DNA from: Candidatus Eiseniibacteriota bacterium
GTDB lineage: Bacteria > JAFGKV01
Direction of reading: 5' to 3'
Assembly: GCA_025453925.1 (NCBI GenBank)
Contig: JALOPK010000240.1
Span: 1 to 5,549, forward strand
Length of the DNA stretch: 5,549 bases
The position numbers and the translations under genes are program-made. The notes under the pieces were generated by a model. The model did no database searches. It saw nothing but the letters and a program-made list of their open reading frames with translations, and was not told where the DNA came from. This document shows, piece by piece, positions 320-3,554 of this stretch (within the stretch, counting starts at the first letter, position 1; each line of letters opens with the position of its first letter).

Positions 320-1345
320 ATGCCCGAGGACAGAGTTATCTCCCTGGACCGCTTCATCATTGAGCAGGAACGTCTCTACCCCGAGGCCACTGGCAAGTTC
401 TCCAACATACTCTACGACATCGCGCTGGCGGCGAAGGTCGTGACACGGGAGGTACGGCGGGCGGGAATCACCGACATCCTCGGACGAGCAGGCAGGGCCA
501 ATGTGTACGGTGAGGATGTCACGAAACTCGACAACTTCGCAAACAACGTGTTCATCCATGCTACCGAGCACAGCGGCAACGTCTGTATCATGGCCAGCGA
601 GGAGAACGAGGGGTGCGTCGAGATTCCCCCCGAGTACCCCACGGGCAACTACGCACTGCTGATGGATCCCCTCGATGGATCATCCAACATCGACGTGAAC
701 GTCGCGATCGGGACGATCTTCTCCCTCCACCGGAAGGTATCCAAGGGGCCAAGGGGTGCGATCGAGGATTGCCTGCAGCCCGGGCGGAAACAGGTGGGGG
801 CAGGGTATGTGGTGTATGGATCCAGCACCATGCTTGTGTACACGACAGGCTCAGGTGTGCATGGATTCACGCTGGATCCTACCCTCGGCGAGTTCGTGCT
901 GAGCCACCGCAACATCCGGATTCCGGAGCGGTCGGCATACATCAGTGCCAACGAGTCCAACTACCCGAAGTGGCCCACCGAGGTGCGGTCCTACATCGAC
1001 CATCTCCGCAAACGATCTTACAGCAGCCGGTACATTGGATCTCTGGTCGCCGACTTCCATCGCAATCTTCTGAAGGGTGGGATGTTCTTATACCCGCCCG
1101 ACCTGAAGTCACCTAAGGGCAAGCTCCGCCTTCTGTATGAAGCGGCGCCACTCGCCTTTGTCGTCGAGCAGGCGGGAGGATACGCAAGCGACGGTAACGG
1201 CCCGATTCTTGACCTCCAACCGGAGCAGCTCCACCAGCGGGTACCCCTCTACATCGGGAGCCCCTTCGAGACAAGGGAGGCGGAAGCCTGGCTCAGCGGG
1301 AGGAGACGACCGGCCAGTGAACCCGTCGCCTCCCCGAGGGACTGA
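320..1345 (+). CDS. fbp: Class I fructose-1,6-bisphosphatase
   Basis: A cytoplasmic enzyme of gluconeogenesis (and of the Calvin cycle where present) that hydrolyses fructose-1,6-bisphosphate to fructose-6-phosphate and phosphate, using divalent metal. At 341 residues it is the usual family length. Visible signatures are 'GEDVTKLD' (64-71), the acidic metal-site segment 'MASEE' (91-95), the hallmark 'MDPLDGSSNID' (115-125) followed by 'GTIFSL' (131-136), 'YSSRYIGSLVADFHRNL' (234-250) with 'KGGMFLYP' (252-259), and 'KLRLLYEAAPLAF' (268-280) with the metal-ligand Glu274, then 'EQAGGYASDG' (283-292). All key residues look intact. The last 14 or so residues (from about 328) are a basic, proline-rich extension. 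The start is ATG at 320 with AGGAGG 6 nt upstream. It is the first gene of a plus-strand cluster, followed after 65 nt by an EIIA gene without an evident terminator. Confidence 0.97.
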   Translation: MPEDRVISLDRFIIEQERLYPEATGKFSNILYDIALAAKVVTREVRRAGITDILGRAGRANVYGEDVTKLDNFANNVFIHATEHSGNVCIMASEENEGCVEIPPEYPTGNYALLMDPLDGSSNIDVNVAIGTIFSLHRKVSKGPRGAIEDCLQPGRKQVGAGYVVYGSSTMLVYTTGSGVHGFTLDPTLGEFVLSHRNIRIPERSAYISANESNYPKWPTEVRSYIDHLRKRSYSSRYIGSLVADFHRNLLKGGMFLYPPDLKSPKGKLRLLYEAAPLAFVVEQAGGYASDGNGPILDLQPEQLHQRVPLYIGSPFETREAEAWLSGRRRPASEPVASPRD

Positions 1346-1363
1346 ACCCGCACCGTCCATCCT

Positions 1364-1371
1364 TAAGGAGG
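1364..1371 (+). promoter_or_regulatory. Strong Shine-Dalgarno sequence TAAGGAGG between fbp and EIIA
   Basis: TAAGGAGG is near-perfect anti-SD complement, but it sits 39 nt upstream of the EIIA start, too far to serve it. It is 4 nt upstream of a GTG at 1376 that opens a 12-codon ORF. The EIIA start has its own weaker site, GAGGG at 1400-1404, 6 nt before GTG 1411. Confidence 0.5.
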
Positions 1372-1375
1372 AAGT

Positions 1376-1414
1376 GTGCTCATCCGAACAAAGGCTCCTG
1401 AGGGTGACGTGTGA
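1376..1414 (+). CDS. Possible 12-codon leader ORF coupled to EIIA
   Basis: GTG at 1376 opens a reading frame for the 12-residue peptide MLIRTKAPEGDV (GTG read as Met), ending at TGA 1412-1414. It lies 4 nt after TAAGGAGG (1364-1371). Its stop overlaps the EIIA GTG start at 1411 as GTGA, the same geometry as the ATGA overlap between EIIA and the antiporter. Terminating ribosomes could therefore re-initiate on EIIA. The peptide resembles nothing I recognise and has no run of one amino acid suggesting attenuation. The strong SD and exact overlap are the only evidence, and chance is possible. Confidence 0.3.
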   Translation: MLIRTKAPEGDV

Positions 1415-1884
1415 AGATCGCCCAATACCTGCCCGAAGAAGCGATCATACCCACTCTCACCGTGAGCAACAAGCTCGAGGCACTGCGCCACATGCTTCGC
1501 GCCATGAATGCACTAGGGTATCTGAGCGATCCCGCACAGGCGGAGCACGACCTGTTGACCCGGGAGGCCAGAATGACCACGGGCATCGGGCACGGAATCG
1601 CCGTCCCCCATGCCCGCACGGCCAGCGTCACGGCGTTGCACGCCGTTCTGGCTCGACACGCAGATGGGCTGGACTGGGCCGCCCTGGATGGCAGGCCCGT
1701 GCACTTCATTCTGTTAGCCCTTTCACCGTCTGATGCACCCGGTCCACACCTTCAGTTCGTCGCGTCCATGGCTCGGCTCATGCATGACGGTGAGGTGTAC
1801 GCAAGCCTTCTCGCGGCGCCTACGGCCCGCCGGATGCACGGAATCGTCTCCCCACCCAAGCGAAAGGGGCTGTTCCGGCCATGA
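1411..1884 (+). CDS. PTS EIIA protein, fructose/nitrogen-regulatory (PtsN-like) type
   Basis: A 157-residue soluble single-domain EIIA. In this family a histidine accepts phosphate from HPr/NPr. Stand-alone members usually regulate rather than transport sugar: E. coli EIIA-Ntr binds TrkA and KdpD to control potassium. Here 'TTGIGHGIAVPHAR' (56-69) is the active-site loop, with His67 the expected phosphorylation site. 'LDGRPVHFILLALSP' (92-106) and 'HLQFVASMARLMHD' (113-126) match the family core. The usual C-terminal helix is short and replaced by a basic tail ending 'PPKRKGLFRP'. In-frame stops at 1399 and 1405 force the start to GTG 1411, which has GAGGG 6 nt upstream. The stop overlaps the antiporter start by ATGA. 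No EIIB, EIIC, HPr or EI is in the window, favouring a regulatory role. The domain is clear; the partner is inferred. Confidence 0.92.
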   Translation: MKIAQYLPEEAIIPTLTVSNKLEALRHMLRAMNALGYLSDPAQAEHDLLTREARMTTGIGHGIAVPHARTASVTALHAVLARHADGLDWAALDGRPVHFILLALSPSDAPGPHLQFVASMARLMHDGEVYASLLAAPTARRMHGIVSPPKRKGLFRP

Positions 1885-3554
1885 GAGCCCTCCTCCTTTT
1901 GCTTGCGCTTTGCGTGTGGGCCGTGCCCGCGTGTGCCGAGGCAACCGAAGGCCAGGACACGCCGGATTTGATGGTGCAACTGGTTTTGCAGCTCGCCATT
2001 GTCATCTTCGCTGCGAAGTTCGTCGGCGAGTTGGTGGAACGTCGTTTGCACCAGCCTGCAGTCCTGGGCGAGCTCATTGCCGGCACGATCATTGGGCCGT
2101 ATGCACTAGGTTCTATCCACCTCCCTGGCATCGGGCCGCTCTTCCCTCGACCAGACCCAACTGCGGCCTTGCCCGTGTCGCCAGAGCTCTACGCCATCGC
2201 CACGCTCGCCTCCATCGTTCTGCTGTTTCTCTCCGGCCTCGAGACGGACTTGGCGACGTTCCTCAAGTACTCTGTGGCGGGAACCGTTGTGGGTCTCGGG
2301 GGGGTGATCTTCTCGTTTGCCTTCGGTGACTGGATTACCGTGCTGCTCGGTTTCGCAGACGGTTTCATGGATCCCATCGCGCTCTTCATGGGCGCGGTCT
2401 CGACGGCGACCTCCGTGGGGATCACGGCCCGCATCCTGTCCGAACAGCGGAAGATGGACACGCCCGAAGGCGTGACCATCCTTGCGGGCGCCGTCATCGA
2501 CGATGTGCTCGGCATCATCGTGCTCGCGCTGGTCATCGGCATCTCCCGGGTCAGAGGCGGTGGGGGAGCCCTGGATTGGGGAGCCATCGGCCTCATTGCA
2601 GTCAAGGCATTCGGCTTCTGGTTGGGCTCCATGGCGATCGGACTCGCCGTCGCCAAGCGGGTATCCGGGCTGTTGAAGTGGCTGCGATCCAGGGAGACCA
2701 TGGGCGCGGTCGCTTTCGGCTTCGCTCTGCTATTGAGCGGCTTGGCGGAAAAGGCCGGTCTCGCCATGATAATCGGAGCGTATGTGATGGGCCTCTCGCT
2801 GTCGCGGGTGGACATCGCCCACGAGCTTCGGGATCGTCTGTCATCGATCTACAGTCTGCTGGTCCCGATCTTCTTCTGCGTGATGGGCATGCTCGTTGAC
2901 TTCTCCTCCATGGGGCATGTCCTGGTCTTTGGGCTCATCTCTACCATCCTGGCCGCACTGGCCAAACTCCTTGGATGTGGAGCCGCGGCCCTTCTGGTCG
3001 GGTTCAACCTCCGTGGCGCCGCCAGGGTGGGGTCAGGCATGCTCCCACGGGGTGAGGTGGCGCTGATCGTTGCGGGCGTGGGGTTGGCGGCGGGGGCCGT
3101 CACTCAAGACATGTTTGGGGTGGCCATCATGATGACACTGGTGACCACGCTGGCGGCGCCTCCCCTCCTCGTTCGACTCGTTAGGGGGGGATCGGGGCTG
3201 CGGTCGCGAAAAGGTCAGACCGCCGAGTCCGAAGTGGAGCCCATCACGCTCGACTTGCCCACCGTCGATGTGGCGGAGTTCATCCTGTCCCGGATTCTCG
3301 ATTCGTTCGTCCGGGAGGAGTTCTTCGTTCACCGCATGGATCCGGCGGCGGGGCTCTACCAGGTCCGCAAGGAGGATATCGCGCTGACGATTCGCCGCGA
3401 CAGAAGCGCTCTGCGTTTCACATCCCGTCCAGAGGACCGGGATGTCGTCCGGATGTTCGTTCTGGAGGAGATCGCAACTCTTCAGGAACTTCTCACGGGC
3501 CTGAGTAGGCTGGACTCCATGAAAGATCTTGGCGCGCGGCTGCTGCTGGACTAG
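1881..3554 (+). CDS. CPA2-family cation/proton antiporter with unusual C-terminal soluble domain
   Basis: A 557-residue inner-membrane antiporter exchanging Na+ or K+ for H+. Residues 1-19 resemble a signal peptide (Arg2, Leu-rich core, A-C-A before Glu20), which would place the N-terminus outside. About 13 hydrophobic segments follow from residue 30 to 433. Family marks are 'LHQPAVLGELIAGTIIGP' (56-73), 'LLFLSGLETDL' (114-124), 'STATSVGITARIL' (174-186), the ion-binding Asp pair in 'AVIDDVLGIIVLA' (204-216, Asp207-Asp208) and 'MLPRGEVALI' (387-396). Residues 440-557 are a soluble tail with no visible Rossmann or RCK (TrkA-N) motif; it contains 'FILSRILDSFVREEFF' (467-482) and an alternating charged/hydrophobic segment. 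Start ATG 1881 overlaps the EIIA stop by ATGA, with a weak AAAGGGG 11 nt upstream; Met31 has no SD. The ion specificity cannot be read from sequence. EIIA linkage suggests PTS control. Confidence 0.92.
   Translation: MRALLLLLALCVWAVPACAEATEGQDTPDLMVQLVLQLAIVIFAAKFVGELVERRLHQPAVLGELIAGTIIGPYALGSIHLPGIGPLFPRPDPTAALPVSPELYAIATLASIVLLFLSGLETDLATFLKYSVAGTVVGLGGVIFSFAFGDWITVLLGFADGFMDPIALFMGAVSTATSVGITARILSEQRKMDTPEGVTILAGAVIDDVLGIIVLALVIGISRVRGGGGALDWGAIGLIAVKAFGFWLGSMAIGLAVAKRVSGLLKWLRSRETMGAVAFGFALLLSGLAEKAGLAMIIGAYVMGLSLSRVDIAHELRDRLSSIYSLLVPIFFCVMGMLVDFSSMGHVLVFGLISTILAALAKLLGCGAAALLVGFNLRGAARVGSGMLPRGEVALIVAGVGLAAGAVTQDMFGVAIMMTLVTTLAAPPLLVRLVRGGSGLRSRKGQTAESEVEPITLDLPTVDVAEFILSRILDSFVREEFFVHRMDPAAGLYQVRKEDIALTIRRDRSALRFTSRPEDRDVVRMFVLEEIATLQELLTGLSRLDSMKDLGARLLLD

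Follow-up and report, generated by a model that had tools for sequence, protein, structure and literature searches.

A NapA-like CPA2 antiporter paired with or fused to a dedicated EIIA protein: a predicted PTS-controlled ion-exchange module in about a dozen phylum-level lineages

Many bacteria encode phosphorelay proteins of the phosphotransferase system (PTS) without a recognized sugar permease, and the regulated targets of these proteins are largely open outside the proteobacteria. Cation transport under EIIA control is already known for TrkA, KdpD, and YcgO, and a second ptsN is found in the kdp operon in about 10% of alphaproteobacterial genomes (PMC13104625). The closest precedent for the system described here is that of Escherichia coli, in which PtsN, when unphosphorylated, inhibits K+/H+ antiport by the CPA1 protein YcgO (CvrA), to whose cytoplasmic tail it binds (PMC11808508). 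The present analysis concerns an EIIA gene that overlaps the gene of a predicted CPA2 cation/proton antiporter on contig JALOPK010000240.1, which was analyzed as one whole stretch of 5,549 bases (the window) and belongs to a draft genome of 3.9 Mb in 502 contigs (82% complete). No paper describing a CPA2 antiporter with an adjacent or fused EIIA was found among the open-access papers searched; subscription papers and domain databases were outside this search, so a prior mention is possible, and domain databases may already list the EIIA-CPA2 architecture. The pair and its predicted functional elements are as follows.

1411..1884, + strand: stand-alone EIIA (PTS_EIIA_2 / EIIA-Ntr-like), 157 amino acids (aa), GTG start (Pfam; PtsN structure match)
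1609..1611, + strand: His67 of EIIA, codon CAT, predicted phosphoryl acceptor (sequence reading, alignments)
1881..1884, + strand: ATGA in which the EIIA stop and the antiporter start overlap (sequence reading; GTGA in the sister species)
1881..3554, + strand: NapA-like CPA2 cation/proton antiporter, 557 aa, ATG start, with a C-terminal alpha/beta tail (Pfam; NapA 4bwz match)
2499..2504, + strand: Asp207-Asp208, predicted ion/proton-binding pair (invariant in 75/75 sequences)
2964..2966, + strand: Lys362, aligned to NapA Lys305 (invariant in 75/75 sequences)
3216..3551, + strand: tail domain at the antiporter C-terminus, beta-alpha-beta4-alpha, proposed to dock EIIA and gate transport (conserved in 55 relatives; without a Pfam family)

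The window pair resembles PtsN-YcgO in combining a PF00359 EIIA that carries an acceptor His, a phosphorelay that appears regulatory rather than devoted to sugar uptake, and a cation/proton antiporter to which EIIA is proposed to bind at a cytoplasmic C-terminal region. YcgO moves K+, whereas the window antiporter is predicted to move Na+, and EIIA is here a dedicated neighbor or a fused domain, unlike in PtsN-YcgO; to our knowledge, YcgO is not encoded next to ptsN. Thermus thermophilus NapA (4bwz) is alike in its transmembrane domain, Asp-Asp pair, and Lys305 equivalent, but its solved chain (394 residues) is without the tail of about 115 residues and the EIIA of the window system. The glutathione-gated K+ efflux proteins KefC/KefB (8bxg) share the CPA2 fold and, on our proposal, a regulated cytoplasmic C-terminal part; unlike them, the window antiporter has no RCK/TrkA-N domain by Pfam, and it matches them far more weakly than NapA. 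With the EIIA-Ntr structures (1a6j, 3urr, and 4gqx), the window EIIA shares the EIIA fold and the active-site His (template modeling [TM] score, about 0.88-0.90), whereas it differs from PtsN in falling below the NCBIfam PtsN cut-off and in carrying residues typical of antiporter-linked EIIAs (M55, G58, S105, and P112).

At the level of predicted genes, a dedicated EIIA-antiporter module is real and widespread. A scan for the antiporter over one genome each of 84,980 species gave 208 relatives, the best 80 of which were analyzed by open reading frame (ORF) calling and by a profile search for EIIA, built from the window EIIA and 13 other Fermentibacteria EIIAs. By profile, 70 loci had EIIA directly upstream of the antiporter (56) or fused to its C-terminus (15; one locus has both), and inspection revealed two further upstream EIIAs, one truncated where its contig stops (L057) and the other masked in part (L096), bringing the upstream count to 58. 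One locus (L109) was cut off before scoring, and EIIA was adjacent or fused in 72 of the 79 scorable relatives, spanning about a dozen phylum-level lineages, with a gap between upstream EIIA and antiporter of mostly -10 to +30 bases. These lineages (NCBI naming) include Fermentibacteria, Aminicenantes/Acidobacteriota, Spirochaetota, Verrucomicrobiota, Kiritimatiellota, Lentisphaerota, Myxococcota, Fidelibacterota, Omnitrophota, Auribacterota, and KSB1; named or strain-labeled carriers are Pontiella sulfatireligans F21(T) (L069) and Candidatus Marispirochaeta associata JC231 (L039). The pairing is not by chance, because Fermentibacteria genomes hold only about five EIIA genes each (four to six), yet nearly all of these antiporters have an adjacent or fused EIIA. 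A preliminary description of this DNA had singled out the overlapping antiporter as the target of EIIA and had proposed a search for conservation of the pair and for fused proteins; the pair proved conserved far beyond close relatives, fusions were found in several phyla, and the proposed target came through both comparisons.

The linked EIIAs are also recognizable by their own residues. The window EIIA matched PF00359 (PTS_EIIA_2) with 90.2 bits (cut-off, 27; E-value, 1.6e-25) and the three PtsN structures named above in the Protein Data Bank (PDB), and scored 63.9 bits against the PtsN equivalog TIGR01419, below the NCBIfam cut-off of 138.7. His67 sits in the motif GIAVPHAR, and the acceptor His is invariant in 71 of 71 linked EIIAs. 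Twelve residues marking linked EIIAs were derived by comparison with 18 other EIIAs (M55, G58, V73, I99, T103, S105, P112, H113, Q115, F116, A118, and S121 in window numbering); 66 of 70 linked EIIAs scored 8-12, the window EIIA 9, and other EIIAs 1-5. An adjacent EIIA was missing in seven of the 79 loci, and five of those genomes encode an unlinked EIIA with 10-12 of the 12 signature residues, an out-of-sample test in that these were not used in picking the residues. In a tree of 90 EIIAs, the linked ones grouped together; the exceptions were a single long-branch row and a few other EIIAs scattered among them. Forcing all 72 linked EIIAs into one clade, apart from the 18 others, gave a log-likelihood above that of the free search by 10.7 (approximately unbiased test, p-AU 0.66); the tree neither proves a single clade of linked EIIAs nor contradicts one. 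Fused and unfused EIIAs were interleaved, with well-supported branches forcing at least two changes of state. The EIIA C-terminus PPKRKGLFRP (window 1852-1881) is identical in both Fermentibacteria species despite 65% overall identity; it was rejected as a conserved C-terminal motif because it occurs only in Fermentibacteria among the linked EIIAs.

Several loci have other arrangements. Three Kiritimatiellae loci with no upstream EIIA (L049:2335-4905, L059:2177-4945, and L102:132-2942) carry a GNAT acetyltransferase-acyl-CoA-ligase-like fusion directly upstream of the antiporter, an assignment that was Pfam-checked in L049 and judged by a similar N-terminus in L059 and L102. Locus L092 (190-3089) has a fused EIIA plus a diverged EIIA-like gene directly upstream with a 4-base overlap, and L105 (4845-8376) has a tandem pair of antiporters of the subfamily, of which the second seems to be frameshifted or in pieces. 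A contig labeled Paceibacterota (Minisyncoccota) bears the pair (L082), for which a binning error is likely because such genomes are small. The sister Fermentibacteria species encodes a second, different CPA2-EIIA fusion (L019:3112-4815), about 24% identical to the window antiporter, in which EIIA is joined directly, without the tail domain; a Kiritimatiellae genome has a fusion 52% identical to it (L119:1453-3222). An apparent third type (L138:1483-3342; 5' end of the locus cut) joins an antiporter membrane part, a long middle region that is possibly universal-stress-protein-like, and a C-terminal EIIA-like domain.

The PTS context suggests that this EIIA is regulatory and that a PTS_EIIC sugar permease is not its usual partner, because HPr was universal among the sampled genomes with the pair while PTS_EIIC was rare. 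Enzyme I (EI) was present in all three Fermentibacteria genomes, and HPr was found in the two with higher completeness, adjoining HPr kinase/phosphorylase (HPrK), and in 24 of 24 other sampled genomes with the pair. The permease search covered the PTS_EIIC family, mannose-type and other EII classes lying outside its scope; PTS_EIIC was found in none of the three Fermentibacteria genomes and in four of the 24 others, and was absent from the remaining 20. The preliminary description had likewise taken the lack of sugar permease parts nearby as a sign of a regulatory EIIA, a view with which these lineage-wide data agree. Phosphorylation of the acceptor His is plausible, because EI and HPr occur in the lineage, and HPr in the other sampled genomes with the pair. 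HPr was not found in the window's own genome, an 82% complete draft in which the sole PEP-utilizers_C match is pyruvate phosphate dikinase; a dead relay was nevertheless rejected, since close relatives have both HPr and EI, and the EI N-terminus appears as a short open frame of 122 aa in this genome itself. No HPr, HPrK, or EI genes were seen beside the pair in the flanks of the retrieved loci. With EIIAs, EI, HPr, and HPrK (the last two in the two more complete genomes) and no PTS_EIIC, Fermentibacteria apparently have a regulatory-only PTS.

The antiporter matched Na_H_Exchanger (Pfam) with 194.6 bits (cut-off, 26.2; E-value, 3e-57), and its best solved relative by sequence was Thermus NapA 4bwz (E-value, 1.4e-43); against the CPA2 subfamily model TIGR00932, it scored 149.8 bits, below the NCBIfam cut-off of 238.3. 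D207, D208, K362 (NapA K305), R390, and E392 were each invariant in 75 of 75 antiporter sequences. From work on NapA, the Asp-Asp plus Lys pattern goes with electrogenic Na+/H+ exchange, and the same signature here predicts electrogenic exchange of Na+ (or Li+) for H+ as likelier than that of K+. The emphasis of the preliminary description on potassium is accordingly replaced by Na+ (or Li+) as the likelier ion.

A conserved C-terminal domain of about 90 residues was observed in fused and unfused antiporters alike. Modeled alone with AlphaFold2, it adopted a beta-alpha-beta4-alpha arrangement (predicted local distance difference test [pLDDT], 88). The domain had no Pfam match in 55 tails (CorC included; RCK/TrkA-N was likewise unmatched in these tails and in the window antiporter), no credible PDB sequence match, and no confident Foldseek match against the PDB (best E-value, 0.015). 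A fold comparison (VIA) gave Z scores of 7-9.5 for KA1-like domains and other widespread arrangements, and naming the domain by fold was rejected because the KA1-like arrangement is too common for functional inference. The AlphaFold2 model of a natural KSB1 fusion (730 aa; pLDDT, 91.6; predicted TM score [pTM], 0.76) folded as NapA, tail, and EIIA, with Foldseek matches to NapA (TM, 0.87; 33% identity) and to EIIA-Ntr 1a6j (TM, 0.90). EIIA distances correlated somewhat better with tail distances (r, 0.79; partial, 0.43) than with distances of the membrane part (r, 0.75; partial, 0.18), which fits docking on the tail. The tail is the likely docking site of EIIA.

Taken together, EIIA and the antiporter probably form one dedicated unit, an electrogenic NapA-type Na+/H+ antiporter with its activity set by a bound or fused EIIA, because the association is strict, fusions exist, both parts are retained together when unlinked, the acceptor His is invariant, the transport residues are conserved, and HPr is present. 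Phosphate would pass from phosphoenolpyruvate (PEP) through EI and HPr to His67 of EIIA, which would dock on the C-terminal alpha/beta tail, and the phosphorylation state of EIIA would alter the action of the tail on the transport domain. With the E. coli PtsN-YcgO pair as a guide, unphosphorylated EIIA would probably inhibit and phosphorylation would lift the block, so that a high ratio of PEP to pyruvate would turn exchange on; our confidence in this sign of control is modest. Since EIIA and antiporter form a single chain in some lineages, the switch is probably a change within the bound complex, not release. The complete proposal, in which an EIIA that stays docked or is fused receives phosphate derived from PEP and thereby gates electrogenic Na+/H+ antiport via an undescribed alpha/beta tail, directly coupling the PEP/pyruvate state to Na+ and H+ gradients in about a dozen phylum-level lineages, seems to us evenly poised between right and wrong.

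By ORF reading, the window carries fbp, EIIA, and the antiporter in this order, head to tail on the + strand, with two further genes toward the contig ends.

320..1345, + strand: fbp, class 1 fructose-1,6-bisphosphatase (NCBIfam NF006778); neighbor outside the conserved module
1-195, - strand: RlmI-like fragment, cut by the contig end
3809-5548, - strand: protein with BACON/Ig-like repeats, truncated at the contig end

FBP scored 467 bits against NF006778 (cut-off, 368). A scan found no terminator-like sites between the three genes, and its four matches across the window were about the shuffled count. The order of the genes, the ATGA overlap, the intact His67, and the lack of a visible terminator had all been noted in the preliminary description and were upheld by the ORFs, family matches, and terminator scan; a suspected short leader ORF across the start of EIIA was dropped on recount. 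A second species of the genus repeats the order RlmI (-), fbp, EIIA, antiporter, and BACON protein (-), with identities to the window of 90% for FBP, 65% for EIIA, and 79% for the antiporter; its BACON protein has 911 aa and a start resembling a lipoprotein signal. The closest named relative with the locus in the antiporter scan was Candidatus Fermentibacteria (L035), and no matching antiporter was found in the third Fermentibacteria genome examined.

Association and fusion give no direction, and the antiporter might instead be a membrane dock or sequestering site, with the ion state or transport controlling EIIA and its downstream targets, in keeping with E. coli EIIA-Ntr proteins that have several regulatory targets (PMC13104625). 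We consider this unlikely, given the fusion to a transporter with an invariant acceptor His, the YcgO precedent in which EIIA is the controller (PMC11808508), and the several other EIIAs in these genomes that could serve other targets. Gene overlaps and short gaps could also be explained by translational coupling alone, EIIA having another target and sharing the operon for expression only; the 15 natural fusions, and a distinct group of EIIAs that tracks the antiporter across phyla and is kept when unlinked, make such co-transcribed housekeeping very improbable. The preliminary description had read the locus as possible ion antiport, with an emphasis on potassium, linked to gluconeogenesis through fbp. 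In favor of this reading, the three genes follow one another in two species, and no terminator was seen between them. These are the only two species, both of the window's genus (Fermentibacteria), in which fbp adjoins the pair. It was not found in the 79 other retrieved loci, so the expected conservation of its linkage fails, fbp was rejected as part of the module, and as a general rule the idea is largely refuted; the NapA-type Asp-Asp and Lys and the lack of an RCK domain by Pfam also speak against it, leaving it barely credible. In the dedicated-unit proposal, fbp would be a neighbor in one genus, outside the mechanism.

Some points weigh against a dedicated, EIIA-gated Na+/H+ antiporter. 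YcgO is a CPA1 protein with RCK- and CorC-like tail domains, whereas the window antiporter belongs to the NapA-like CPA2 type and ends in a tail of another, unnamed kind; its predicted Na+ selectivity rests on homology; and the correlation of tail and EIIA distances may only reflect similar rates. The pairing fraction holds for this subfamily, the 80 loci being the best of 208 found by two short peptide patterns, and these loci are not independent of one another. In two genomes, both draft metagenome-assembled genomes, the antiporter occurs without a signature EIIA anywhere (L059 and L102).

The EIIA-antiporter pair names a concrete PTS target in Spirochaetota, Kiritimatiellota, Lentisphaerota, Omnitrophota, Aminicenantes, and others. 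In the fused forms, switch and transporter lie in one polypeptide, which makes EIIA control of cation flux testable with a single purified protein. The pairing suggests that the energy-metabolite state of the cell directly controls ion exchange.

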